The notes beneath the pieces were generated by a model. It saw only the letters and a list, made by a program, of their open reading frames with translations, was not told the origin of the DNA and ran no database searches. The position numbers were made by a program, and so were the translations under genes. A DNA stretch of 64,000 nucleotides from Streptococcus troglodytae. GTDB taxonomy: Bacteria; Bacillota; Bacilli; Lactobacillales; Streptococcaceae. Shown one piece after another: positions 20,268 through 48,442 of this stretch; within the stretch, counting starts at the first letter, position 1, and every line of letters begins with the position of its first letter. The stretch lies in assembly GCF_002355215.1 (NCBI RefSeq), contig NZ_AP014612.1, positions 496,001-560,000 on the forward strand. The letters are read 5' to 3'.

Positions 20268-20301
20268 TGGAATTTCCCTTCTTTTTGTCAATAGCGGAGC
20301 T

Positions 20302-20965
20302 TTAATCTGACCAAGAGATAACTTCTTGGCGCGGTTTACGGCTGCGTGGGTGTTTGGGATCGTGCAAACGATAACCAAAAGAAATCATATTGGCGATGCC
20401 TTCCTTTTCAGGATTAATGAGCCCTGCCTGAGCTAAAATCTGATTGGCTTTGGCATAGTGAAAACCTTCAATGGGACAGGAATCAATGCCAATCATACTG
20501 GCAGCAGTCATCATATTGCCCATGGCAATGTAAGTTTGCTTGGCTGCCCAATCAAAAAGGGCGCGTTCATTGGTTAAGGCCAAATCGTTTTCTTGGAAAG
20601 CTTGATAGAGCTTGAGGCGGGCTTCCAAGGTTTCTTTGTCCTTTAAACCCCGACGGATTAAACTCTGGCGGATATTTTCAGAATCGTAGCGAACATCTCT
20701 TCTGGCAATGGCGAGTACAAAATGACTGGCAGTTTCCAGTTGATATTGAGCTCCCCAAGCAATTTCTTTCAGCTGCTTTTTATCGTTTCATTTTCTAAAA
20801 CGATAAAACGCCAAGGTTCAAGCCCGACAGAAGAAGGACTGAGCCAAGCACAGTCAAGAATAAAATCCATGTCTTCTTTGGGAATTTTTTGATCATTATA
20901 GACACGTACAGCCACACGATGATCAAAAGCTTGACGGATTTGTTTTTTATATCTTCTTTAGTCAT
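20302..20965 (-). CDS. NAD(P)H nitroreductase family protein, two frameshifts
   Basis: A flavin reductase. The N-terminus starts at ATG 20965 (MTKEDIK) and leaves frame at the plus-strand T run 20943-20948. With one base restored it reads KQIRQAFDHRVAVRVYNDQK and DFILDCAWLSPSSVGLEPW, the FMN-binding start of the family. A second break lies at the T run 20777-20781 (ENETIK then KQLKEIAWGAQY). The rest is intact: SHFVLAIARRD, then YIAMGNMMTAASMIGIDSCP and the end HPRSRKPRQEVISW. Each break is one missing base in an A/T run. It probably reduces nitro compounds or quinones and is likely cotranscribed with gloA. Confidence 0.82.
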
Positions 20966-21028
20966 GGTAAAATGCTCCTTATTTTGATACACTTATCATA
21001 ACACAATTTATTGAAAAAGAGGAATATG

Positions 21029-33337: not shown

Positions 33338-35106
33338 ATGTATTATTCAAATGGTAACTATGAAGCCTTTGCTCATCCACAAAAACCTGAAAATGTTGAT
33401 GGGAAATCAGCTTATATTGTTGGAAGCGGCTTAGCGGCTCTTTCTACAGCAGTTTTTCTTATTCGTGACGGACAAATGGCTGGAGAACGCATTCATATTC
33501 TTGAAGAATTATCTCTTCCTGGTGGCAGTATGGATGGTATTCGTAATGAACGTTTAGGTTACATCATTCGCGGCGGTCGGGAAATGGAGCCTCACTTTGA
33601 AGTCCTATGGGATTTATTTCGTTCTATCCCTTCTCTGGAAAATCCCAAACACTCTATTTTAGATGAATTCTACTGGCTTAATAAAAAGGATCCAAGTTTT
33701 GCTAAAACACGTGCCATATATGAGCGTGGAAAGGCAATACCAGATGACGGTCAGTTGACCTTATCTCAAAAAGCAGTTAAGGAAATTTTTGATCTTGTTC
33801 TAACACCGGAAAGTCATCTGCAGGACGTTCAGATTGATCAAGTCTTTAGTGAAGATTTCTTCAACTCTAACTTCTGGCTTTATTGGAGTACCATGTTTGC
33901 TTTTGAACCATGGGCCAGTGCTATGGAAATGCGCCGTTACCTCATGCGGTTCATTCAGCATGTTGGGACTTTGAAAAATCTCTCATCCTTAAAATTCACA
34001 CAATACAATCAATATGAATCATTGATCTTACCGCTAGTAGCTTTTCTCAAAGACCATAATGTCAATTTTAGCTATCAGACTGTTGTCACTAATATTTTAG
34101 TCAATCGCTCTGGCAGTGATAAGCTTGCTACTAAAATTGAAATGACTGTTGATGGTCAAGAAAAAGTATTGCTTTAAGTAGAGATGATCTTGTTTTTGTC
34201 ACCAATGGCTCCATTACAGAAAGCAGTACTTACGGTGATAATAACCATCCGGCTCCATTAACGCACGACCTTGGTGCTAGCTGGCAGCTGTGGAAGAACT
34301 TAGCTGCACAAGATAGTGACTTTGGATGTCCCGAAAAATTCTGTGAAAATATCCCTGATGCTAATTGGACCATGTCTGCTACAATAACTTTTACAGATCA
34401 ACGCATTGCTAAATACATTGAACAGATTAACCAAAAGGATCCTTATAGTGGATCTATTGTAACCAGCGGACCTACCAGTATTAAAGATTCTAGTTGGCTG
34501 CTTGGCTATTCTATCAGCCGACAACCACATTTTAAAGAGCAAAAGAAAAATGAGCTTGTTATCTGGCTCTATGCTCTCTATACTGATCGCAAAGGAGACT
34601 ATGTTGCTAAACGGCCTGATGAATGTACAGGGATTGAAATGTGTGAAGAATGGCTTTATCATATAGGAGTTCCTGAAAATACTATTCATGAACTAGCCTG
34701 TTCGGCCTCGACGATCCCTTGTCATATGCCTTATATAACAACGTATTTCATGCCGCGAACAACTAACGATCGCCCACTTGTTGTGCCAAAACATAGTAAG
34801 AATTTAGCTTTTATAGGAAATTATGCTGAAACACCGCGAGATACGGTTTTTACAACAGAATATTCTGTCAGAACTGCTATGGAGGCTGTTTACACTTTGC
34901 TTGAAGTTGATCGAGGTGTCCCTGAAGTGTTTGCTTCAACTTTTGATATTCGCATGCTACTTAATGCGCTCTACTATCTCAATGGTCAAAAATCTTTAAT
35001 GGATATTGATTTTCCTTGGGTGGAAAAAGCAGCCCTTAAAGAAGCTCTCAAAAAGGCTAAAGGAACATACATAGAAGAATTATTGAAAGATTATCATCTG
35101 ATTTAG
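33338..35106 (+). CDS. ohyA: Oleate hydratase, frameshifted
   Basis: A flavoenzyme that adds water to the cis-9 double bond of unsaturated fatty acids, which detoxifies them. The N-terminal half holds the FAD motif [20 protein letters not shown] and the [20 protein letters not shown] loop. It stops at 34177 (GQEKVLL). One extra A in the run 34161-34165 joins [20 protein letters not shown] and the rest to 35106, giving 589 residues, normal for the family. The C-terminal half includes [20 protein letters not shown] and [20 protein letters not shown]. It is myosin-cross-reactive-antigen-like. Confidence 0.88.
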
Positions 35107-35418
35107 AAAATTTTCTATCTGAAGATTCTAAAGGCTGGTAACTATGATTGCTGCGCAATCGCTTATAAAGGTAAGAAAACAAGCAGCAGCTCTCATTAGA
35201 AGATAAGTCTAATGAAGGCTTTCTAGCTAGAGCTTTTCAAAATTGAATTTGTTTGTAAGATAACGTTTTTTTGACTAAGATTGTATCTAGGAATGATTAA
35301 TGAACAAGTGGTCATAATGGCAACGTTCAATCTTTTATCAAAGTTATCAAGCAATGATGTTAAAAACAATAAGGAAGTCATTAAAGACTTTTTAATAGTC
35401 GCTCCTAAAGCTGTTTTT
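35107..35418 (+). other. Intergenic DNA after oleate hydratase
   Basis: No gene is seen. Hairpins CATTAGA-agataag-TCTAATG (near 35198-35218) and a following imperfect GCTTTCTAGCTAGAGC with TTTT (near 35219-35240) may end the ohyA transcript. The open frame upstream of the fRMsr ATG lacks family similarity and crosses the promoter, so it is not counted as coding. Confidence 0.5.
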
Positions 35419-35427
35419 TGTTATAAT
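35419..35427 (+). promoter_or_regulatory. Extended -10 promoter of fRMsr-dnaX, possibly leaderless
   Basis: TGTTATAAT ends 6 nt before the ATG at 35434, placing +1 at the start codon. No SD is seen in the 30 nt before the ATG. Confidence 0.55.
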
Positions 35428-35433
35428 AGTCTT

Positions 35434-35931
35434 ATGAAAAATCAAGAAAAAATTTCGGCTTATCAAATTTTACTGGCTCAGGCACAATCGATGTTTGCCA
35501 ATGAAACAAATGCTTTGGCCAATTTAGCCAATGCTACAGCCATGCTGAATAAGACCCTTCCTAATGCTATCTTTACAGGATTTTATCTTTTTGACGGTGA
35601 AAAACTTGTCTTAGGTCCTTTCCAAGGCGGTGTCTCTTGTGTGCGTATTGCTCTTGGAAAGGGTGTCTGTGGTCAGGCTGCTGCCAAAAAACAAACACTT
35701 ATCGTAGGAGATGTCACCAAGCATGATAATTATATTTCCTGCGATTCAGCCGCTATGAGTGAAATTGTTATTCCTATGGTAAAAGACGGTCAGCTTATTG
35801 GTGTGCTGGATTTAGATTCACACTTAGTTGGTGATTATGATGTTATAGATCAAGGCTATTTAGAACAATTTGTGACAATTCTTCTGGAAAAAACAAATTG
35901 GCATTTTGACATGTTTGGAGTGAAAAACTGA
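35434..35931 (+). CDS. Free methionine-(R)-sulfoxide reductase, GAF domain
   Basis: A 165-residue GAF-fold enzyme that reduces free methionine-R-sulfoxide. The fRMsr cysteines are present: [19 protein letters not shown] (two Cys) and the resolving/catalytic Cys in [16 protein letters not shown]; the DLDS end of the GAF fold follows. The family start is MxxxEKxxxYQ, matching ATG 35434. This ATG lies 6 nt after an extended -10, so the transcript may be leaderless. Its TGA overlaps the dnaX ATG (TGATG), a conserved streptococcal pairing. Confidence 0.92.
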
Positions 35932-37604
35932 TGTACCAAGCGCTTTATCGAAAATATCGAAGTCAGACTTTTGATGAAATGGTAGGGCAGGAAGTTGCGG
36001 CAAAAACTTTGAAACAGGCTGTCGCTTCAGAGAAGATTAGTCATGCCTATCTTTTTTCTGGACCAAGAGGAACAGGAAAAACCAGTGCTGCTAAGATTTT
36101 CGCCAAAGCCATGAACTGTCCTCATCAAACAGATGGAGAACCTTGCAATAACTGTGATATTTGCCATGACATTACCAACGGAAGTCTGGAAGATGTGATT
36201 GAAATTGATGCTGCTTCTAACAATGGTGTTGATGAGATCCGTGAAATTCGTGATAAGTCAACCTATGCTCCTAGCCGTGCCACTTATAAGGTTTATATCA
36301 TTGACGAAGTACACATGCTCTCAACAGGGGCTTTCAATGCCCTTTTGAAAACTTTGGAAGAACCGACAGAAAATGTTGTCTTTATTTTGGCAACAACTGA
36401 ATTACATAAGATTCCAGCTACTATCCTTTCACGCGTCCAGCGTTTTGAATTTAAGGCTATCAAAACCAAGGCCATCAAAGAGCATTTGGCAGACATTCTT
36501 AAAAAAGAAGGCCTCAGCTTTGATGAAGAAGCATTGAGTTTGATTGCCAGACGTGCTGAAGGGGGCATGCGTGATGCCCTGTCTATTTTGGATCAGGCTC
36601 TTAGCTTAACGAATGATAATGATGTTTCGCTAGAAATAGCTGAAGAAATCACTGGCAGTATCAGCTTAAGAGCACTGGATCAGTATGTGGCTGACCTTTT
36701 GGTACATGAAACTCAGCAGGCACTCAGTGATTTGGATACTATTTTTGACAATGGAAAGAGCATGAGCCGTTTTGCGACAGATCTTTTAAATTATCTGCGT
36801 GACCTTCTGGTTGTCCAAGCGGGTGGAGAAAACACACATCAAGGAGAAGCATTTGACAGAAATCTCGCCTTGTCACAAGACACTATTTTTCAAATGATTG
36901 ACATTGTGACCAAAAGTCTACCAGAAATCAAAAACGGAACACATCCCAAGATTTATGCGGAAATGATGACCATTCGTCTATCCAAAAATGACCAGAAACT
37001 GCATTCAGTTCAAGATTTACCGGATAATATTGCTCAAGAAATTGAAACGCTCAAATCAGAGATTAAAGAACTCAAAAAAAGCTTGCAATCTCTGGAAAAA
37101 GGCAAGCCTTTCAAAGTGACCAAGGTTCAAAAGACTTCTTTTCGCTATAAAGTGGATAAGGACAAGGTCATGACCATTATGCGAGAAACTGTGGCAGATA
37201 GTCAAAAATCGCGTGAGTATTTAGAAGCCCTCAAAAGTTCTTGGAATGAAATTTTAGACAGTATTTCACCTCAAGATCGAGCCCTTTTAATGGGATCCGA
37301 ACCTGTTCTGGCTAATAGTGAAAATGCTATTCTGGCCTTTGATGCTGCCTTTAATGCCGAACAGGCTATGAAACGCTCAGATCTCAATGCTATGTTTGGC
37401 AATATCATGAGCCAGGCTTCTGGCTTTTCCCCAAAAATTATGGCTGTGCCAAGAGCTGAGTTTGATGCTATCCGCAGCGAATTTGCTCATAGCCTAAAGG
37501 CAGACAAAGATGATTCTCAGGAAGAAAAAACAGAAGCAACAAAAGCGTTTATCCCAGAAGGTTTTGATTTCTTAGCGGATAAAATTGTTCTTGAAGAAGA
37601 CTAA
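35931..37604 (+). CDS. dnaX: DNA polymerase III subunit gamma/tau
   Basis: A 557-residue clamp-loader subunit. AAA+ domain: Walker A GPRGTGKT (44-51), zinc module Cys63-Cys72-Cys75-Cys78, Walker B VYIIDEVHMLS, and the SRC-like region ILSRVQRFEFK. The lid, collar domain and a charged C-terminal tau region that binds the polymerase follow. No internal frameshift to a short gamma form is evident. It overlaps the fRMsr stop by 1 nt and ends at a strong terminator. Confidence 0.96.
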   Translation: MYQALYRKYRSQTFDEMVGQEVAAKTLKQAVASEKISHAYLFSGPRGTGKTSAAKIFAKAMNCPHQTDGEPCNNCDICHDITNGSLEDVIEIDAASNNGVDEIREIRDKSTYAPSRATYKVYIIDEVHMLSTGAFNALLKTLEEPTENVVFILATTELHKIPATILSRVQRFEFKAIKTKAIKEHLADILKKEGLSFDEEALSLIARRAEGGMRDALSILDQALSLTNDNDVSLEIAEEITGSISLRALDQYVADLLVHETQQALSDLDTIFDNGKSMSRFATDLLNYLRDLLVVQAGGENTHQGEAFDRNLALSQDTIFQMIDIVTKSLPEIKNGTHPKIYAEMMTIRLSKNDQKLHSVQDLPDNIAQEIETLKSEIKELKKSLQSLEKGKPFKVTKVQKTSFRYKVDKDKVMTIMRETVADSQKSREYLEALKSSWNEILDSISPQDRALLMGSEPVLANSENAILAFDAAFNAEQAMKRSDLNAMFGNIMSQASGFSPKIMAVPRAEFDAIRSEFAHSLKADKDDSQEEKTEATKAFIPEGFDFLADKIVLEED

Positions 37605-37633
37605 AAAAGAAATTCCGAGAGGAATTTTCTTTT
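37605..37633 (+). terminator. Terminator of dnaX
   Basis: AAAAGAAATTCC and GGAATTTTCTTTT form the stem around GAGA. Confidence 0.85.
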
Positions 37634-37643
37634 AGAATGAGGA

Positions 37644-37700
37644 CAAACCTAATTTTCAACGTAAAATTTTTTAACTCTGCAAATTTCAATTTCCTTTTTA
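37644..37700 (+). repeat. Second repeat type, truncated copy
   Basis: gacaaac, ttttcaacgtaaaa and the ctctgca core match 51289-51330. The 3' block gagactttccgctg is absent. Confidence 0.5.
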
Positions 37701-37710
37701 ACAAACATGA

Positions 37711-37747
37711 AAGAAAATTCTGACATGAATTTTCTTTTTGGTACAAT
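37711..37747 (+). promoter_or_regulatory. Terminator fused to an extended -10 promoter, DUF3272 gene
   Basis: AAGAAAATTC (37711-37720) and GAATTTTCTT (37727-37736) form a stem followed by TTT. TGGTACAAT (37739-37747) starts on the last T. The -10 ends 6 nt before ATG 37754. Confidence 0.6.
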
Positions 37748-37753
37748 AATAAT

Positions 37754-37948
37754 ATGTTAAAACAAGACTTCATTATCATGCTGATAACGACTGTGACTGA
37801 AACCATCTTTTTTAATAATGCGATTTTTGAAGGTCAATTCTTTTGGGCTGGTTTTTGGGGGCTTCTGCTCCTTCGCAGTCTGCGCAAGACTTATGTTATC
37901 AGCAAGTTTACCAAGGCCATCTTATCAGCTACCAAGAAGAAAGACTGA
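37754..37948 (+). CDS. DUF3272 family small membrane protein
   Basis: A 64-residue protein with one hydrophobic segment (about residues 5-15) and a second, aromatic-rich one (FFWAGFWGLLLL, 29-40), then a basic tail. It matches DUF3272, a streptococcal family of unknown function found next to dnaX. No SD precedes the ATG; the promoter ends 6 nt before it, so leaderless translation is likely. Its last 20 nt overlap the end of birA on the other strand. Confidence 0.7.
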   Translation: MLKQDFIIMLITTVTETIFFNNAIFEGQFFWAGFWGLLLLRSLRKTYVISKFTKAILSATKKKD

Positions 37949-38864
37949 CTTCACCGCTGTTAAGGATTTTTTTCTGCCCATTTTCTAATTGTACGATGAG
38001 CTGTCCCGTATCTGTAATATCTGTCGCAATCCCTTTATAAACCCTGTTATTTTCAATGAAAGTCACTTGTCTGTCTAAGACGAGTGATTTTTCTTTATAG
38101 ACCCTTATCAGATCAGCCTTGGGAATATTAAAGAAAATGTTCCAGATTTCAGAGATAAGCTGGTTGCGCGTGATCGTAGGCTTTTCAGAAAAAACACTGG
38201 CTGCCTTGCTCTGCAATTCCTCAGGAAAATCAGTCACATGAAAATTAATGCCCATACCAATGATAACATCGGTAATCAAGCCTGTCTCAATAGAAGAAAC
38301 AGCCTCGGTCAAAATACCAGCCACCTTTTTACCATGCAAATAAATATCATTGACCCACTTGATGTCTGTTTCAATCTCAGTCAAGCGAGAAATGGCCTTA
38401 ACCACACTGGTAGCAGCCATAAGTGTATAGGAAGGTAATTGCTTAAAAGGCAATTCAGGGTGCAGATGCATAGACATATAAATGCCTCCAGTTTCAGGAG
38501 TAAAAAACTGCCGACTAAAACGCCCCTTAGCAGCTGTCTGACTAGGCGCAAGATAAAGAGCAGGAGCAGGGTCCCCTTTTTCAATACCTGCCTTAGCATC
38601 CAGCTGTGTCGAAGAACTCTTCTCATTGAAAAAGACCTTGATACCAGTCATTTGCTCAATCTCATCCGGCAAAAAAAGATCCCCCGAAAGCAAGCGATAC
38701 CCACGATTCTTAACCGATTCAATGACCAGCCCCTTACTTTCTAAAGTCTGAATCGCCTTCCAAACAGCCGTCCGAGAAATACCCAAATCTTTTCCCAGAA
38801 CCTCACCTGTCACAAAATTATCCGCCTGCGAAAGCACCTGATAAATTTTCTCATACGTTTTCAT
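37929..38864 (-). CDS. birA: Biotin-[acetyl-CoA-carboxylase] ligase / repressor
   Basis: A 311-residue bifunctional BirA. An N-terminal winged helix (KTYEKIYQVLSQADNFVTGE..., recognition part ISRTAVWKAIQTLESKG) is followed by the ligase core with the biotinyl-AMP loop AAKGRFSRQFFTPETGGIYM (the GRGRxxRxW-type segment) and the catalytic Lys in DIKWVNDIYLHGKKVAGIL, then an SH3-like end. It activates biotin and attaches it to carboxylase carrier protein. It borders the accessory cassette at 39.1 kb; metK lies on the other side. Confidence 0.95.
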   Translation of the reverse strand: MKTYEKIYQVLSQADNFVTGEVLGKDLGISRTAVWKAIQTLESKGLVIESVKNRGYRLLSGDLFLPDEIEQMTGIKVFFNEKSSSTQLDAKAGIEKGDPAPALYLAPSQTAAKGRFSRQFFTPETGGIYMSMHLHPELPFKQLPSYTLMAATSVVKAISRLTEIETDIKWVNDIYLHGKKVAGILTEAVSSIETGLITDVIIGMGINFHVTDFPEELQSKAASVFSEKPTITRNQLISEIWNIFFNIPKADLIRVYKEKSLVLDRQVTFIENNRVYKGIATDITDTGQLIVQLENGQKKILNSGEVSLSSW

Positions 38865-39081
38865 AACCCAACCTCAACCACAAATGAATTTCTTATTGCT
38901 ATTGTAGCATAAAAAAGCAAGAAAAAATGGAAAGAGAAACACCAGAAGACAAATGAGAAGTTTTAGTGGAGAAAGTATCAAGGACGATGGAAGAAGAAGG
39001 AGGTGAAAATTAAAAGAAGAATGCCTTGAGCGAAGATGTAAAAATAGCTGAACCGTAATATTTCTGTAACTTTTTAAATAG
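38865..39081 (+). other. Left flank of the accessory cassette
   Basis: An A/G-rich stretch after the birA start, without a gene. No direct repeat or integrase site is recognised. The cassette promoter follows. Confidence 0.45.
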
Positions 39082-39090
39082 TGGTATAAT
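39082..39090 (+). promoter_or_regulatory. Extended -10 promoter of the accessory cassette
   Basis: TGGTATAAT with no clear -35. The expected +1 is near a GTG at 39098. Confidence 0.55.
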
Positions 39091-39151
39091 AATAAGTGTG
39101 AATAAATATTTAGTAAAAATATATTTAAAGAAAAAGAGTTACGAGGGATTT

Positions 39152-39531
39152 ATGGATAAGCATATTTCCGTATATGAAATTAATGAAACCATTAATGAAG
39201 TAAAACTTAATAAAGAAAAAATTGCCAACATAGCAAATATCTTTGATACAATCATTGGTGTTCTGGATGGGAAAACAAATCACAAAGCAATTATTGCGGA
39301 AATCAAGGACAATGAAAGTCTTTTGAAAGAATATTATACTAATAAAGATAATTACCAAATTAAAAGTTTTGTGGAAAAACTTTTATTAGCAGAAAAAGGA
39401 AATAAAGCTAAACGTAAAAAAGTATCAGAGAAGGTTTCTTATTTGTAAGAGAATCTAAATATGATTTAACACTACTAAAAAGGTTTATAAAGAAAATTCT
39501 TAGTAATTGGATTGATAAAAATAAAAGATAG
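39152..39531 (+). CDS. Unrecognised small protein of the accessory cassette, frameshifted
   Basis: MDKHISVYEINETINEVKLN... is a charged, helical protein I do not recognise. As read it stops at 39448 (KKVSEKVSYL). One extra A in the run 39416-39421 continues it as SIREGFLFVRESKYDLTLLK and RFIKKILSNWIDKNKR to 39531, giving 126 residues with a basic C-terminus. ATG 39152 has GAGGG 4-5 nt upstream; an in-frame GTG at 39098 lies about where the promoter at 39082 would start transcription. It is AT-rich like the next three genes and unlike birA and metK. It could be an adaptor or an unrelated passenger. Confidence 0.5.
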
Positions 39532-39698
39532 TGATAAATCTTATTATGCTAGCCTAAACAAGCTGTAAATTTAGTTTTTCTTATCGTGATATTTACAATG
39601 GAACCAACAAATTGATAAGATATACTCAAAAAAATCAATAAAGGCTCTATTACAAAAGCCGTCTATTTAAACTTAACTTTATTAACATGGAGGTATAA

Positions 39699-40470
39699 AT
39701 GACTAAGAAAAAGAATAGTAAAAAGGAAATGATTAAGATAGTTTATTTTGATGAACCCTCTGCAAGTGATTATAATGTTATCAAAGGTGGAGGACAAATT
39801 GATTGGACTTTGGAACAAATAAAGAAAATTAGCAAAAATTATTGGTGAAATTGAGGCTCAAGCTAAGGCAGGATTTAACTTATTTTCTTATCTTAAAGCT
39901 GCAGTATCAGGTAAGGTAAGTACTGGTGTTGATATTGGGACTTCAAGTCTTGTTAATAGTACAGTAACTAATACAATTTTAACTGATTATATTTTAAACG
40001 CTGATAAAGATAAGAATATTAAAAAGTTTGAGAACTGCTCTGTTTATGCTCCAAAAGATTCTGTGACCATATATAGAATGTATAGTTCATATTTGAACAT
40101 TGTTCCTAAAGAGGAAATCCCTATTAATTTAGAAGGTCTCAATAATGCTATTTTAGGGGAGCGAGGATATTATCAAATGCTAGCTTATGAAGAATCCGCG
40201 AATAAGTCAGTTCTTAGATTTAATATAAATGCTTTTAAGAATAATTATACACTTGCTGATTTGACTAAAATGGACTTATGTTATTATGCAGTAAAAGTTG
40301 GGCAAACCACTTTAGGACAGTTATCATTAGAAAAAGAATTTGATATTCAAGAACCAGAGATTAAAATTGATATTCAAAAAATTGTTACAGGTCAGAAAAA
40401 AATACTCAATAATGATGATTTTTTAGATGTTTATGATGTTGTTTTAGCGGGAGTAATGAGCAATGAATAA
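39699..40470 (+). CDS. DUF6414-like protein of the accessory cassette, frameshifted
   Basis: A 256-residue protein after correction. It begins MTKKKNSKKEMIKIVYFDEP (SD ggagg, 5-6 nt upstream) with SASDYNVIKGGGQIDW, typical of DUF6414 as I know it. As read, the first frame stops soon after IKKISKNYW; removing one A from 39825-39828 gives IKKLAKIIGEIEAQAKAGFN and the open frame to 40470. Middle parts are SLVNSTVTNTILTDYILNAD and VLRFNINAFKNNYTLADLTK. No catalytic motif is seen. It overlaps the AAA+ gene by 8 nt, so the two products probably act together. The family name comes from memory. Confidence 0.6.
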
Positions 40471-41569
40471 AGTAAATATATTTTATGGATCAAAAAGTAA
40501 ATTTAACGACTTAATTCCTAGCGAGTATAGGAGTTTAAGTGATTTAGCTTATCAATTTGACAATGATTCTAAAAACTTAAAACTTATAGTCCCTAATAAT
40601 GAAAGAAGATATCCGAAAGAAGAACCAAAAGAGAAAATAAACGTAAAGAACTTTGTTATTGGTTCGTCAGAATATGCAGGAGTAAATGAACATGTAATTA
40701 CTAATTTTATAAATTTTTTATCTAAATTTGAAGTTCAAAATTTATATGTACAAAATCCTCCGCAACAAATGTATGATCAAATTATTAGATTGTTCTCAAA
40801 ACCTAAAATTCAGTATCAAGAATACAAAAAATTAGAATTAAGACATTTAAAAGATATTAATTCCAAATATAATGATGTTATAATTGGTCAGGAATCAGTC
40901 AAATCCCATTTATTACAGGCTTTATTCCCACTTACTTTGAAGAATCGTCAGAAACCAATTGTTCTGTTATTTTATGGAAAATCAGAAGTGGGTAAAACAG
41001 AGACAGCTAAATATATTTCACAAATACTTAAGGAACCTATTTTTAGAAAGCAGTTTTCTATGTATCAAAATACTCAATTTGCAACGTATCTTTTTGGAGG
41101 TACTTATCAAGAAACTAGTTTTGCTAAAGATTTATTAGATCGAGAGTCTAATGTTTTATTACTTGATGAGTTTGATAAAGCGAATCCTATCTTTCATAGT
41201 GCTTTTTACCAATTATTTGATGAAGGTATTTATGAAGATAGAAACTATTCTTTGAAATTAAACAAATCAATCATTATTTGTACTTCTAACTATACTGATT
41301 TAAAGGACATTGAAGAGAATTTAGGGAGCGCTATTTACAATCGTTTTGATAAAATAATTAAGTTCAGTGACTTAAACAAAGAAGCTAAAAAACAAATTGG
41401 TGCAAAAGAGTATTCTAGACTTTCTCAGGAATTCAATTATGATTTACCTGAAGATATAAAAATTAGACTTGAAGAAGCTTATTTAAAGTGTGATAATGTA
41501 AGACAAATTCATCATACAATAGAAAATACTTTTTCTTTGTGTATTATAGATAACGAAATGAATAATTGA
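40463..41569 (+). CDS. Clp/torsin-like AAA+ ATPase of the accessory cassette
   Basis: A 368-residue protein with a ~130-residue N-terminal region of unknown fold and one AAA+ domain of the Clp/HslU/torsin class. Landmarks: IIGQESVKSHLLQALFPL at 140-157, Walker A GKSEVGKT (172-179), Walker B VLLLDEFDKANP (231-242), sensor-1 region IIICTSNY (270-277), and arginine-finger-like AIYNRFDKII. The LDEFDKA motif and the absence of a protease domain point to a remodelling ATPase that works on or with a partner. It overlaps the DUF6414-like gene by 8 nt; a PIN_8 gene follows 139 nt later. Codon use is very AT-rich. Confidence 0.8.
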   Translation: MNKVNIFYGSKSKFNDLIPSEYRSLSDLAYQFDNDSKNLKLIVPNNERRYPKEEPKEKINVKNFVIGSSEYAGVNEHVITNFINFLSKFEVQNLYVQNPPQQMYDQIIRLFSKPKIQYQEYKKLELRHLKDINSKYNDVIIGQESVKSHLLQALFPLTLKNRQKPIVLLFYGKSEVGKTETAKYISQILKEPIFRKQFSMYQNTQFATYLFGGTYQETSFAKDLLDRESNVLLLDEFDKANPIFHSAFYQLFDEGIYEDRNYSLKLNKSIIICTSNYTDLKDIEENLGSAIYNRFDKIIKFSDLNKEAKKQIGAKEYSRLSQEFNYDLPEDIKIRLEEAYLKCDNVRQIHHTIENTFSLCIIDNEMNN

Positions 41570-41708
41570 ATATTAGTGTACAATGTTTATATTCTTTTAT
41601 TTAAAGAATAGATTTGGCAAGGTTCAATAATTAATAGTTTTCCTTTTATGTAAAAATAAAACAGTCGAAACAGAAAATTTTAGAGAATTTAAAATATAGG
41701 AAAATAAT

Positions 41709-43036
41709 ATGAATAAATTAGAATTACTTAGATATGAATATCAAAAAGAAAATCGTTCACAAACTTTGTTTATATTTGACACAAATTTTTTGTTGTTACC
41801 TTTTAGATTATGGTCAAAAGGTGATGAAATTATAAATTTAATAAAAGATAATATTAGTACTGAACAAATATTTATTCCTTATATAATATTACTTGAATTT
41901 CATCGTAATATTGATTATGTTATTGAAAAAGTATCAAATTCATTACAAGGCATAAAAAAGTTAGATGGGAAGGCTTATGAACTAAATGTTGATGATTTTA
42001 CTAATGATTTAAAAATAAAATTATAAAAAATATATTTAAAGGTGATAGGTCAAATATTGAACAGTTGAAAAAGGAAATTGAGGAAACTATTTCGAATAAA
42101 TTACCAGAAATCCAAAGAGAAGTCGAAAATAACATAACTTCTATTAATAATGTTGTTAGTAAATATATTAAGCAACTTAATAAAGAAATAATAGAACCCT
42201 TAATTTCAAGAGATTATATTAAGAAATCTGAAATGAATATTAAATATTATAGCGAAGTTTTATTTGAAAAATGTTTAGGAGAAAAATATTCTGCCCAAAA
42301 GATTAAAAATATCGGAATAGAAGGTGAAAAAAGATTTAAAAATAATATTCCACCTGGTTTTCAAGATGATGAAAAATTTAAAAATATCGTAATTGATGGT
42401 GAAATTTTTCAAAATAAATTTGGAGACTATGCGATTTGGAAAGATATTATTGAATACTGTAAAAACAAAATCTCTATTAATGATAAGTTTACTAATGTGG
42501 TTATAGTATCAGATGATAAAAAAGAAGATTGGCGCAGTAATAAACAAAGTATGCGTTCTGAACTAAAACAAGAATTTTATTTTGAAACAGGTCTACCAAT
42601 TTCAATGTTATCTTCTGCAGAATTCATAGAAAAAGTATCAAATAATAGAGAACTTGCAAACGTTGCTAGAAAAACCGTTCAAGCTCTTGATCAGGAACTA
42701 ACAAAGCAAAAGGATCTAGATATTGAAGCGATTAATAATGGAAACTATGAATCATTAGTTGGGATTTGGAAAAATAGTCGTGGTGATATTTTAGATATAA
42801 AGTTTGATGGTCAAGTAAATGATGATATGAAACTGGTTAAGATCAAAAATTTAAATAGTACAAACAAAGTTCCATGTATTGGTATTGGTAATGGTTATAC
42901 TGGTGCTGCACTAGTTCTATTTAAAATAGGGTTTAAGAATCCATATGGTGATCAATCTGATATAAGTAAAGCTAGACTTATTCTAACTCAAAATGAAGGG
43001 GATTATCCAGCGGAAATGTATTATTATCGTCAATAA
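41709..43036 (+). CDS. PIN_8-type (DUF4935) nuclease-like protein of the accessory cassette, frameshifted
   Basis: A 442-residue protein after correction. The PIN start is FIFDTNFLLLPFR with Asp24, followed by a Glu at ~63 (ILLEFHRN). The second half has PPGFQDDEK (215-223), GDYAIWKDIIEY (239-250) and VSDDKKEDW (267-275), the acidic signature of PIN_8. The two halves are joined by adding one A at 42011-42015; as read the first frame stops at 42026. A helical insert (110-200) separates them. The last ~120 residues (SLVGIWKNSRGDILDIKFDG...) form a separate domain I cannot name. RNase activity is inferred from the fold. Confidence 0.75.
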
Positions 43037-43132
43037 TTTCCCTTCTTAAGTTTCTTTTAAGAATCCTATCTTATACTATAGTCATCCTAGCAATAGGAAT
43101 CCTAAAACTTTTCTTTTCATAAATCTCCTAAG

Positions 43133-43163
43133 AATCTCAGTCCATTCGGACTGGGATTTTTTT
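43133..43163 (+). terminator. Terminator of the accessory cassette
   Basis: AATCTCAGTCC and GGACTGGGATT form an 11-bp stem (one G-U) around ATTC, followed by TTTTTT. Confidence 0.9.
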
Positions 43164-43350
43164 GTGGTTAAATTCGCTGCTAAAACTTCTATTAAAAATA
43201 GTTATAACCAGCTGGTTGGAAAAAATATAGTGATTTATAGTTGATGGTAATTAAGCTATAAAATAGCAAGATATAAGCTATATTAGCTCTGAAAAATTAA
43301 GTTAAACCACTTATAAAAGACAAATTTAATGACTCTATTTAGTAAAAACG

Positions 43351-43359
43351 TGGTACAAT
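43351..43359 (+). promoter_or_regulatory. Extended -10 promoter of metK
   Basis: TGGTACAAT, about 12 nt before the riboswitch core starts. The 43164-43350 stretch before it shows no gene. Confidence 0.6.
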
Positions 43360-43370
43360 GGTAATATTAA

Positions 43371-43726
43371 TGAGTCCCGAAAAGGCGGCTTTTGTGTTTG
43401 AAATACTTTTATTCTTTGGTAACTTGTTGTGATAACCTTAAGTGCTAGCTGCAACATGGTTTCCTAGACTAAAAACATTTGCTCAACACAAGGGGCATTT
43501 TCTTAACTGTGGATTGCTCGGAAAGTTTTCAACTTTCAGCCGGTTCTTTGTAACTCGCTTCAAATGACTGCATCTAAAGTTGCTAGTCATTTGACGGTAG
43601 CCGCTATTGGCGGTCTGCCTCAGCGCCTTACTAACTTAACACGCGAAATTTGTGTTTGACAGGTTAGTAGGTCGCAAATTTCTCTTTTTTAGAGAAACAT
43701 CTATTTTTAAGGGGGGACATTTTATG
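43371..43726 (+). promoter_or_regulatory. SMK box (SAM-III) riboswitch of metK with a large insertion
   Basis: The 5' core gagtcccgaaaaggcgg lies at 43372-43388 and the 3' core, including the SD, ggggggac, at 43711-43718. GTCCC (43374-43378) can pair with GGGAC (43714-43718), the defining anti-SD/SD pairing that SAM stabilises to block metK translation. The two halves are usually separated by a short hairpin region; here about 270 nt intervene, including a hairpin of cttactaac and gttagtag (near 43629-43670). No transcription terminator is present. Confidence 0.82.
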
Positions 43727-44917
43727 TCAGAACGTAAACTTTTCACATCTGAATCGGTATCAGAAGGCCATCCTGATAAGATTGCCGATCAGATTTCAGA
43801 TGCTATTTTAGATGCTGTTTTAGCACAGGATCCCAAAGCCCATGTAGCTGCTGAAACAGCTGTTTATACAGGTTCAGTTCATGTTTTTGGGGAAATCTCT
43901 ACGACGGCCTATGTAGATATTAACCGTATCGTTCGTAATACCATTGCTGAGATTGGCTATACAGATACTGCTTATGGTTTTTCGGCAGAAACAGTTGGAG
44001 TGCATCCGTCATTGGTAGAGCAATCGCCTGATATCGCTCAAGGTGTTAATGAAGCTCTTGAGGTTCGTGGCCATCATGAGCAAGATGATCTGGATGTGAT
44101 CGGTGCAGGAGACCAAGGCCTCATGTTTGGCTTTGCCGTTGATGAGACGCCTGAACTCATGCCTTTGCCAATTTCTTTAGCTCATCGTTTGGTTAGAAAA
44201 TTGGCAGAGCTGAGAAAGTCGGGAGAAATTGCCTATCTTCGCCCTGATGCTAAGAGTCAGGTAACGGTTGAGTATGATGAAAATGACAAGCCCGTTCGTG
44301 TGGATACGGTTGTTATTTCAACACAGCATGATCCCGAAGCAACGAATGAGCAAATTCATCGGGATGTGATTGAAAAAGTCATTAAAGCTGTTATTCCAGC
44401 TGAATATCTTGATGCTAAGACCAAGTATCTCATCAATCCGACAGGCCGTTTTGTTATCGGCGGTCCTCAGGGAGATTCTGGCTTAACAGGGCGTAAGATT
44501 ATTGTTGATACTTATGGTGGCTATGCTCGTCATGGCGGCGGTGCTTTTTCTGGTAAGGATGCGACTAAGGTTGACCGTTCAGCTTCTTATGCGGCGCGTT
44601 ATATTGCTAAAAACATTGTAGCTGCAGGTTTGGCTAAGAAAGCAGAAGTGCAGCTGGCCTATGCCATTGGGGTTGCTCAGCCTGTTTCTGTTCGTGTGGA
44701 TACCTTTGGAACAGCGCTTGTTGCAGAAAGTAAACTGGAACAAGCAGTGCGTCAGATTTTTGATTTGCGTCCGGCCGGTATTATTAAGATGCTTGATCTG
44801 AAACGTCCTATCTATCGTCAAACAGCGGCTTACGGCCATGTTGGACGTACGGATATTGACTTACCTTGGGAAAAATTAGATAAAACTGAGGACTTGAAAA
44901 AGGCTGTCCAAGCATAA
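43724..44917 (+). CDS. metK: S-adenosylmethionine synthetase
   Basis: A 397-residue enzyme making SAM from methionine and ATP. N-terminus [20 protein letters not shown] (ATP-binding His16), [19 protein letters not shown], the P-loop-like [19 protein letters not shown] (active-site loop with Lys), and [19 protein letters not shown] are all intact. The ATG at 43724 directly follows the riboswitch SD ggggggac; an upstream in-frame TTG is ignored because it lies inside the riboswitch. Product feedback through the SMK box is expected. Confidence 0.97.
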
Positions 44918-44940
44918 AAGGCGGATTTTCCGCTTTTTTT
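44918..44940 (+). terminator. Terminator of metK
   Basis: AAGGCGG and CCGCTT form the stem around ATTTT, followed by a run of Ts. Confidence 0.85.
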
Positions 44941-45003
44941 GTGTTTATAAATTTCATTATTTTATAATAATTCAGTTAGTTTGAAATGTTGTGTAATATA
45001 TGA

Positions 45004-45009
45004 TAAAAT
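45004..45009 (+). promoter_or_regulatory. Probable promoter of murA
   Basis: TAAAAT preceded by TGA (extended -10), about 50 nt before the ATG. No good -35 is seen. Confidence 0.4.
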
Positions 45010-45060
45010 AACTTGGTTAAGATTCTATCGTTTAAGAAAAGTTAAGAAAGTTTTGTTTGC

Positions 45061-46320
45061 ATGAGAAAAATTGTCATTAATGGTGGTAAGCCCTTAAAAG
45101 GGGAGGTTGCGGTCTCAGGAGCTAAAAACAGTGTTGTTGCTCTGATTCCAGCTATTATTTTAGCAGATGATATGGTCACACTTGATGGTGTGCCGGCTAT
45201 CAGTGATGTTGATAGTTTAATTGACATTATGACTTTAATGGGAGCAAGTGTTGAGCGTGATGGTGACAGTCTTAAAATTGATCCGCGCGGTGTAAAAGAT
45301 ATTCCCATGCCTTATGGCAAGATTAATAGTTTAAGAGCTTCATATTATTTTTACAGTAGTTTGCTGGGGCGTTTTGGTCAGGCGGTCGTTGGTTTGCCAG
45401 GCGGCTGCGATTTGGGTCCTCGCCCGATTGATTTGCATCTCAAGGCCTTTAAGGCAATGGGAGCAACGGTTTCCTATGAGGGAGAGGCTATGCGTCTTTC
45501 AACCGAAGGCAAGCCGCTTAAGGGAGCTCATATTTATATGGATACTGTCAGTGTTGGAGCAACGATTAATACGATGATAGCTGCTAGTAAGGCACAAGGC
45601 CGCACTGTTATTGAGAATGCTGCGCGTGAGCCGGAAATTATTGATATTGCAACGCTTTTAAATAATATGGGAGCCCATATCCGCGGGGCAGGAACAGATA
45701 TGATTATCATAGAAGGTGTTGAAAAACTTCATGGAACGCGTCATCAAGTTATTCCTGACCGCATCGAAGCAGGTTCTTACATTGCTTTGGCAGCTGCTGT
45801 TGGTGAAGGAATCAAGGTTACCAATGTGCTTTATGAACATTTGGAGAGTTTCATTTCAAAGCTGGAGGAAATGGGCGTGCGTATGACTATTGAAGAAGAC
45901 AGTGTTTTTGTTGAAAAGCAGGATCAATTAAAGGCGGTTTCCATTAAGACTTCGCCTTATCCCGGTTTTGCGACTGATCTGCAGCAGCCCATAACACCTC
46001 TATTATTAACAGCTGTAGGTCGCGGAAAGATTCGTGATACTATCTATGAAAAACGGGTTAATCATGTGGCTGAATTGGCACGTATGGGAGCTAAGATTTC
46101 TGTCTTAGGCGGCCAAATTATCTATGAAGGACCCAATGAATTAAGCGGAGCTCCTGTTAAAGCAACCGATTTACGTGCGGGAGCAGCACTTGTCACGGCA
46201 GGATTGATGGCAAAAGGTCAAACGGTTATTACGAATATTGAATTTATCTTGCGCGGTTATTCTGATATTATTCAAAAATTGAATCGTCTAGGTGCGGATA
46301 TCGAAATTGTTGAAGAATAA
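45061..46320 (+). CDS. murA: UDP-N-acetylglucosamine 1-carboxyvinyltransferase
   Basis: A 419-residue EPSP-synthase-fold enzyme for the first committed step of peptidoglycan precursor synthesis (enolpyruvyl transfer from PEP). The catalytic loop has Cys116 in [16 protein letters not shown], the residue fosfomycin alkylates. Lys23 ([11 protein letters not shown]) and the closing [14 protein letters not shown] segment are intact. Low-GC Gram-positives carry two copies (murA and murZ); which paralogue this is cannot be settled without the other. The SD is weak (aagaaag), about 10 nt before the ATG. Confidence 0.93.
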
Positions 46321-46345
46321 GATCAACGGAGTCGATTAAAACGAT

Positions 46346-46396
46346 AAAACAGCCTATCAAACTGATTAAAAATATTCAGCTTGATAGGCTGTTTTT
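46346..46396. terminator. Bidirectional terminator between murA and malK
   Basis: AAAACAGCCTATCAA and TTGATAGGCTGTTTT form a perfect 15-bp stem. Confidence 0.93.
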
Positions 46397-46449
46397 TAGT
46401 CCGTCTCAAAACGAGACAGCATTTGGAATAGACAGATATAATTGTTTGA

Positions 46450-47583
46450 TTAATTGATTCGTTTTTCAGTCTCTAAATCAAAGAAGTGTCCCTTAGCAAT
46501 ATTAAAGGTTAATTGTACTTTTTCTCCGGGACTGTGAGAGTCACGGGCATTGACGCGAGCTGTAAATTCAGTACTGCCAAATTTGACATATAGCATGCTT
46601 TCGCTGCCTAAAAGTTCTGATACTAGTATGTCAGCTGTAACACTAGCATTTGGAAAAGTCTCGTGGACAATTTGATCACTTGAGATGTCTTCTGGTCGAA
46701 TACCTAAAGTGACTTTTTTGCCAAGATAACCTTTCTCCTCAAGAATTTTTTCCTGTCCTTGAGGAAGCGCAAAGCTTAGACCATCTTGGTTAACCAAACG
46801 CTCTTTTTCAACGGTCACTTCAAAGAAGTTCATAGCGGGACTTCCGATGAAGCCAGCAACAAATTTATTAGCAGGTTCATTGTAGAGTTCCTGTGGTGTT
46901 CCAATCTGCTCGATACGACCGATAGAGCCGGTTTTATCTGGGTTTGGAGTAGCACTCATGATAACAATACGATCTGCTAAGGTCATGGCTTCTGTTTGGT
47001 CATGGGTAACATAGATAGTCGTTGCCCCAATACGGCGGTGAATTTTAGCGATTTCGGCTCGCATGGCAACTCGAAGTTTGGCATCTAAATTTGACAAAGG
47101 TTCGTCCATTAAGAAGACCTTAGCATCTCGGACAATAGCACGTCCCATAGCAACCCGCTGCCGCTGTCCGCCAGAGAGATCCGCAGGCTTTCTTTCAAGA
47201 AATTCTGTTAGTCCAAGAATTTCGGCAGCTTCGTATACGCGTTTATTAATATCGTCTTTTTTGTATTTACGAAGTTTTAGGCCAAAAGCCATGTTTTCAT
47301 AAACGCTCATATGAGGATAAAGAGCATAATTTTGAAAAACCATAGCAATATCGCGATCTTTAGGAGAGGCATCATTCATAATTTTGTCATCAATATAAAG
47401 GTTGCCTTCTGTAATATCTTCCAGACCAGCAATCATGCGAAGAGTGGTTGACTTTCCGCATCCTGAAGGACCGACAAAGACAATGAATTCTTTATCATGA
47501 ATGTCAAGATTAAAGTCTTCAACGGAATAATGCTTTGCATTGGGATATCTTTTGTAGATGTTATCAAGTTTTAAAGTTGTCAT
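46450..47583 (-). CDS. malK: Maltodextrin ABC transporter ATPase MalK/MsmK type
   Basis: A 377-residue ATPase of the CUT1 sugar ABC family. Walker A GPSGCGKST (38-46), signature LSGGQRQR (135-142), Walker B VFLMDEP, H-loop TIYVTHDQTEAMTLADRIV. A C-terminal regulatory OB domain follows (TLGIRPEDIS...). It energises MalFG import and closes the minus-strand malX-malF-malG-malK unit. In S. mutans MalK and MsmK can serve more than one permease. Confidence 0.94.
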   Translation of the reverse strand: MTTLKLDNIYKRYPNAKHYSVEDFNLDIHDKEFIVFVGPSGCGKSTTLRMIAGLEDITEGNLYIDDKIMNDASPKDRDIAMVFQNYALYPHMSVYENMAFGLKLRKYKKDDINKRVYEAAEILGLTEFLERKPADLSGGQRQRVAMGRAIVRDAKVFLMDEPLSNLDAKLRVAMRAEIAKIHRRIGATTIYVTHDQTEAMTLADRIVIMSATPNPDKTGSIGRIEQIGTPQELYNEPANKFVAGFIGSPAMNFFEVTVEKERLVNQDGLSFALPQGQEKILEEKGYLGKKVTLGIRPEDISSDQIVHETFPNASVTADILVSELLGSESMLYVKFGSTEFTARVNARDSHSPGEKVQLTFNIAKGHFFDLETEKRIN

Positions 47584-47606
47584 AATATCGTTTCCTTACT
47601 TTCTTT

Positions 47607-48442
47607 TTATTTAACAGATCCGCCAGTAATGCCTTCGACGTAATACTTTTGCATGAAAATGAAAAGTATGGTAATTGGAATGGCGATCAGTACAGAACCT
47701 GCTGCAAAGGCCATGAACCAATTATTAATGGTATCAGCTTGAAGCATAGAGAAGAGTCCAATCGCTACGGTATATTTGCTGGTGGCATCTCCAAGAATAA
47801 CCTGAGCAAAAATAAAGTCAATCCAAGGGCCGATAAATGCTAACAGGGCCGTATAAACGATGATGGGCTTAGACAGCGGCAGAGTGATTTTTAAGAAAAT
47901 ATCTTTACGTGTGGCCCCATCAATCATAGCTGATTCATCCAATGAATAAGGAATCGTATCAAAAAAGCCTTTAGCGATATAGAAAGTTAAGGCAGCTCCT
48001 GAAGAATAGACCAAAACAAGAGAAGTTAATGTTTGGGTGAGATTGAGTGCTTTTAGAATATAGTAAACTGCAATCATACTCATAAATCCCGGAAACATAT
48101 TCAGAACAAGAGCTAATTTTAAAAAGCCATTACGGTGTTTAAATTTAATACGGCTAAGCGAATAAGCCATTGCCACTGTGATAGAAGTTGACAGAATACA
48201 AGTGGCTGTTGAAACGATCAAGGTATTTAAAAACCAGCGCCCAAACGGGAAAGAAGAATTGGTAAATAATTTGATATAATTATCTAAAGTCCACGTTTTT
48301 GGAATAATATAAGGAACATAAGCTGTGCCTTCACCGCGAAAACTCGTCAGGATAACCCAAATGATCGGAAATAGCCAAATGAAGGATAAGAGAATCAGTA
48401 AAGCATAGATAGAGCCGATCTGAAGTTGTTTTTTCTTTTCAT
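47607..48442 (-). CDS. malG: Maltodextrin ABC transporter permease MalG, frameshifted at codon 5
   Basis: A six-helix CUT1 permease, 278 residues after correction. The ATG (48442) overlaps the malF stop as TAATG. The frame reads MKRK, then breaks at the plus-strand T run 48429-48434. One added base gives KQLQIGSIYALLILLSFIWL, then PIIWVILTSFRGEG and the intact rest. The EAA loop that docks with the ATPase is present (YSLDESAMIDGATRKDIFLK). As read, translation could begin only at internal codons, losing two helices, so a sequence error is likely. Confidence 0.88.

Follow-up and report, generated by a model that had tools for sequence, protein, structure and literature searches.

A Dodola anti-phage locus, probably decaying, at a variable birA-metK spot in Streptococcus troglodytae

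The window analysed here is a 64,000-nucleotide stretch of the 2.10-Mb single-contig genome of Streptococcus troglodytae (NZ_AP014612.1, positions 496,001 to 560,000), in which birA and metK enclose about 4 kb of AT-rich DNA with a gene pair matching the two-gene anti-phage system Dodola at its core. A sequence-only reading of the same DNA had described a strongly AT-rich cassette between these two genes, and the base composition bears this out, with GC fractions of 0.21-0.31 from 39000 on versus 0.32-0.46 outside (500-base windows across 34000-48000). Between birA and metK the plus strand holds four coding places, all on the same strand (Table 1). The earlier description of four genes is thus accurate for coding places and not for intact genes, as dolA and the PIN_8 gene are split and the first open reading frame (ORF) corresponds to the N-terminal ~100 residues of a longer protein; its mention of "corrected" proteins indicates that the splits had already been noticed. 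The cassette had also been credited with its own promoter and terminator. The terminator stands, as a hairpin followed by a T run at the right end, and terminator-like sites in the region number 4 versus 1.1 ± 1.1 in shuffled sequence. The promoter does not, since a consensus scan returned 35 sites versus 29.6 ± 5.1 in shuffles, no excess above chance; an extended -10-like element, TGGTATAAT, was seen by eye at 39082-39090. Rfam at gathering thresholds gave no match within 38800-43800, and when the cassette DNA was compared with plasmids and phages, matches were confined to short pieces, in 12 plasmid and 3 phage records.

Table 1. Features of the birA-metK interval, in window coordinates.
Feature	Position	Strand	Description
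birA	37929-38864	-	Left flanking gene
First ORF	39152-39448	+	Remnant; N-terminal ~98 residues of a ~322-residue protein (weakly NA37-like)
dolA (DUF6414)	39699-40470	+	Frameshift-split: 39699-39848 and 39823-40470
dolB	40463-41569	+	Unbroken frame; AAA+ ATPase with a single Clp-D2-like module; P-loop residue 175 is Glu
PIN_8-type nuclease-like gene	41709-43036	+	Frameshift-split: 41709-42026 and 42008-43036; C-terminal DUF6287
Terminator-like hairpin, right end	43130-43161	+	14-pair stem with T run
metK	43652-44917	+	Right flanking gene

The identity of the core pair rests on profile searches. The PADLOC DolA profile matched the two dolA pieces at 1.9e-9 and 6.8e-59, and Pfam DUF6414 matched them at 0.00081 (below its cut-off) and, on the larger piece, 1.9e-20. 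For the AAA+ protein, the DolB profile aligned residues 1-367 with profile positions 1-373 of 375 at 1.2e-126, the next-best PADLOC family reaching 9.3e-25, and Pfam AAA_2 matched at 2.1e-11. The DUF6414, AAA_2 and PIN_8 assignments proposed earlier therefore hold, the last at 1.4e-22. The window carries a DolA homologue and a DolB homologue, with dolA lying immediately 5' of dolB in the same orientation. Judged by homology and gene order, the DUF6414 and AAA+ pair is the described system Dodola (DolA and DolB), which was reportedly discovered by Millman and colleagues in 2022. Phage defence, proposed earlier for the whole cassette, accordingly applies to this pair and not to the remaining genes, and the statement that no described system has this exact set gives way to a different picture, in which a known system is stacked with unrelated damaged genes. 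This takes away what had seemed to be a new defence system and gives the core its right name.

One paper (PMC12964521) counts Dodola among four systems that 3 to 8 of 44 S. mutans isolates possess, and states that no single defence system is universal across 478 S. mutans genomes; the system is thus already known, and known in S. mutans. According to passages of another paper, Dodola is carried by 1 of 27 S. thermophilus strains, and standalone systems including Dodola had minimal impact on the tested phages in that paper's own assays (PMC11514479), while excerpts of a further study describe it as protective in S. thermophilus with broad effect. In the passages of PMC11514479 that describe structures, those of DolA and DolB appear swapped relative to the protein families. 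No literature was found under locus tags SMU.1575c-1577c.

Of 335 Streptococcaceae genomes, 15 (the window's own among them) carry a DolB relative at E ≤ 3.1e-94; among the matches listed, the best ones of other genomes begin at 1.5e-32 and lie in longer, Clp-sized frames. A wider scan took one genome per species and kept the best 80 of 128 confirmed places, and the three strongest of six DolB loci in viral contigs were used. Of the 98 DolB loci, five repeat a place already among them, leaving 93 non-redundant ones. DolA is the next upstream gene of DolB in 80 of these 93; among the remaining 13, four have a DolA match elsewhere in the locus and nine have none. The two genes overlap in 72 of the 80 loci, by exactly 8 nt in 21 and exactly 4 nt in 22, so the 8-nt overlap in the window (40463-40470), which had been noted correctly, is typical of the family. 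No family besides DolA lies within 5 kb of dolB in more than 14 of the 93 loci; Dodola shows no conserved third partner across the loci examined. By eye, recurrent neighbours of dolB resemble regulators and conjugation, restriction and integrase genes.

Two local arrangements were observed in these loci. At L036:9935-12008 a zeta-toxin-like ORF (Pfam 4.3e-56) and a helix-turn-helix protein lie directly upstream of dolA, overlapping it, and ORFs in L038 are placed like this pair (by eye); here Dodola possibly stands behind a toxin-antitoxin pair. Separately, a 176-residue ORF follows closely 3' of dolB in L042, L046 and L048, the L042 copy having no PADLOC or Pfam match.

The window pair sits at a variable place in the chromosome. 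The window's birA is closest, among 98 genomes, to those of streptococci G184 and G269 (87 and 86% identity). In 15 chosen relatives (L245-L259), the birA-metK interval contains other genes, by eye oxidoreductase, lipoprotein, deaminase and others, or nearly nothing, and no match to the window's cassette genes was found there. The birA-metK gap is thus a variable spot among the streptococci examined.

Several features of the window copy suggest decay. In the assembly neither dolA nor the PIN_8 gene is a single open frame, each passing from one frame into another across a short overlap (Table 1), the first ORF is truncated, and DolB carries Glu at P-loop position 175, a residue that is Gly in 81 of the 85 sequences compared, Ser in three and Glu in the window's alone. 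Together these observations suggest that the Dodola locus is probably decaying in this genome and may have lost its function. We regard as likely, with some confidence, the overall reading that the window holds a dolA-dolB anti-phage locus at the variable birA-metK spot, probably decaying and flanked by unrelated damaged neighbours. Some findings call for caution: the two breaks fall within A-rich runs, and elsewhere in the window (~20300-20990, minus strand) a nitroreductase-like gene also appears split (by eye). They would fit a working Dodola in which the dolA and PIN_8 frameshifts are assembly indel errors, as would the facts that, of all positions with at least 90% conservation in the 85 sequences, the window DolB differs at 175 alone, and that relatives exist with both genes open (DolB 74% identical to the window's). 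However, 14 window genes have an orthologue (at least 55% identity) in 340 kb of G269 and none of them is split, which speaks against generally poor assembly, and indel errors do not account for the truncation and the P-loop substitution found in the same cassette. We therefore consider an intact, working system unlikely, albeit the most serious competitor to the decaying locus.

The first ORF, which has matches in 9 of 280 genomes of the genus (own included), is a fragment: in the seven loci examined (L262-L268) it matches only the first ~100 residues of ORFs of 319-334 residues, which identifies it as the N-terminal third of a ~322-residue family. In each of the seven, an ORF of about 266-276 residues (~271) overlaps or adjoins the longer one. 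No match to the 98-residue ORF was found in plasmids or phages. The intact relatives are weakly NA37-like, Pfam NA37 scoring below its cut-off of 24.6 bits in two of three scanned (18.5 and 20.4 bits), and they have no match in PADLOC; KwaB of Kiwa, considered as a candidate for this family, was rejected on that result. As an observation apart from Dodola, the two-gene module of a 319-334-residue, weakly NA37-like protein and a ~271-residue protein is scattered among streptococci, with an HsdR-like ORF upstream in three of the seven loci (by eye), and may represent a defence module that has yet to be described.

A gap of 139 bp separates dolB from the PIN_8 gene. Pfam PIN_8 (PF18476) scored 81.2 bits on its larger piece, against a cut-off of 26.1, and 24.4 bits (3.2e-5), just below that cut-off, on the smaller one. 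By eye, the body holds DTN, E and DD motifs, which we take to be those of PIN_8. The C-terminus matches DUF6287 (Pfam, 1.3e-7) within the last ~110-140 residues, a tail region that spans 42600-43036. The body has a GC fraction of 0.21-0.22 and the tail a higher one of 0.30, a step compatible with the joining of pieces from two sources. PIN_8 proteins occur in 18 of the 335 family genomes (E ≤ 1e-8). Among 11 streptococcal examples, ten are single ORFs of 447-505 residues and one is of 284, several sit amid ordinary chromosomal genes (by eye), and blastp found the DUF6287 tail in none. In the 29 other loci examined for the tail, it lies at or near the C-terminus and is 44-61% identical to the window's; the ORF start bears a lipobox or membrane anchor in 26 of these 29 (by eye). 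Neither the tail nor a lipoprotein source for it was found at birA-metK of the 15 relatives.

Among the matches listed from the 335 family genomes, no second gene clearly fuses a PIN_8 body to DUF6287, nor was a clear second fusion found in 385 genomes of the order (partly overlapping the 335), in 50,697 phage records (two matches, both to the tail only) or in 72,556 plasmid records (23 matches). The window's PIN_8 body has no relative in viral_contigs, and no bacterial PIN_8 or DUF6287 literature was among the matches listed. Other alignments count against uniqueness: the alignment of a phage family, phrog_9788, covers residues 9-276 of the larger piece and extends into the DUF6287 region; a few genome matches weakly cross the border (G233 and G234, residues 123/124-341, 25-28% identity), these two genomes having no PIN_8 match; and five plasmid matches, ending at residues 237-271, likewise cross it weakly. 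That the gene is a real, selected chimera, joining a cytoplasmic nuclease to a surface-lipoprotein domain that might act in sensing or as a regulatory lid, and working beside Dodola in some strains, seems to us improbable.

We also considered whether the four genes form a new system, in which a remodeller of the DolA/DolB type would act jointly with a PIN_8 effector and a small partner. They share a strand, a high AT content and a single terminator at the end, and DolB and PIN_8 are both present in 2 of the 335 genomes (the window's own, G000, and G155, the genome of L038) versus ~0.8 expected (15 x 18 / 335, by hand). In contrast, tblastn (E ≤ 0.01) found relatives of the window's PIN_8 pieces, tail or first ORF in none of the 98 DolB loci. 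A profile built from the 11 streptococcal proteins, which recovers the window pieces at 2.7e-34 and 4.2e-15, detected a single PIN_8 gene across the 93 loci, in L038 and 6,353 bp from dolB. The sequence-only reading had itself said that a lack of co-occurrence of AAA+, DUF6414-like and PIN_8 genes in other genomes would refute it; in these loci a PIN_8 gene beside DolB is found nowhere by tblastn and in one locus by profile. With the first ORF a fragment besides, joint action of the four is very improbable, and by these comparisons the PIN_8 gene and the first ORF are unrelated accessory neighbours rather than Dodola partners. That dolA-dolB is a Clp-like housekeeping unit of protein quality control rather than defence, as the similarity of DolB to structurally solved Clp ATPases (best match 1.4e-18) might suggest, is scarcely credible in view of its patchy occurrence, the conjugation-, restriction- and integrase-like genes beside it elsewhere and the anti-phage activity described in passages of published work.

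For the favoured reading of a decaying Dodola locus, a mechanism may be proposed for the intact system. DolB, a single Clp-D2-like AAA+ module, would be coupled to DolA, whose small C-terminal beta domain is perhaps OB-like. Foldseek gave no match to the DolA structure at E ≤ 0.001 in the PDB and viral models, and sequence searches gave no solved relative (one match at E 0.1); with VIA-align, many OB-fold proteins stand among the matches, at Z ≤ 5.5, and we claim no fold from them. ATP use by DolB might then drive remodelling of a phage or phage-altered target and so stop phage growth. In the window genome, this core would sit at the birA-metK spot between what is left of the leading gene of an NA37-like pair and a normally solitary PIN_8 gene with a DUF6287 tail, and would be decaying through its two frameshifts (one in dolA, one in the PIN_8 gene), the truncation and the unusual dolB P-loop.

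Each part of the cassette can be set against its known counterpart. Of the NA37-like two-gene module (~322 and ~271 residues) the window retains the start of the first gene, ~100 residues, whereas the rest of that gene and the second gene are missing. With DUF6287 lipoprotein-like proteins, such as the 329-residue one of L050, the window shares the C-terminal ~110-140 residues; what precedes the domain there is in most cases a lipobox or a membrane anchor (by eye), and in the window a PIN_8 body. The streptococcal PIN_8 genes have in common with the window gene a body with the DTN, E and DD motifs (by eye), and differ from it in that the window gene is split by a frameshift and carries the extra tail. 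Walker A, Walker B and sensor 1 of the second AAA domain of Clp, as seen in the genome's own Clp proteins, align with DolB, which in contrast is a single AAA module. The G-aromatic-aliphatic-G (GYVG-like) motif is absent from all 85 DolB sequences, which have a conserved Y-x-F-G near the same place; that DolB does without the Clp-type pore-loop motif bears on its possible mode of action. Finally, the window pair has the protein families, gene order, short overlap and patchy distribution of Dodola, from which it departs in its frameshifted dolA and in the Glu in the P-loop of its DolB.
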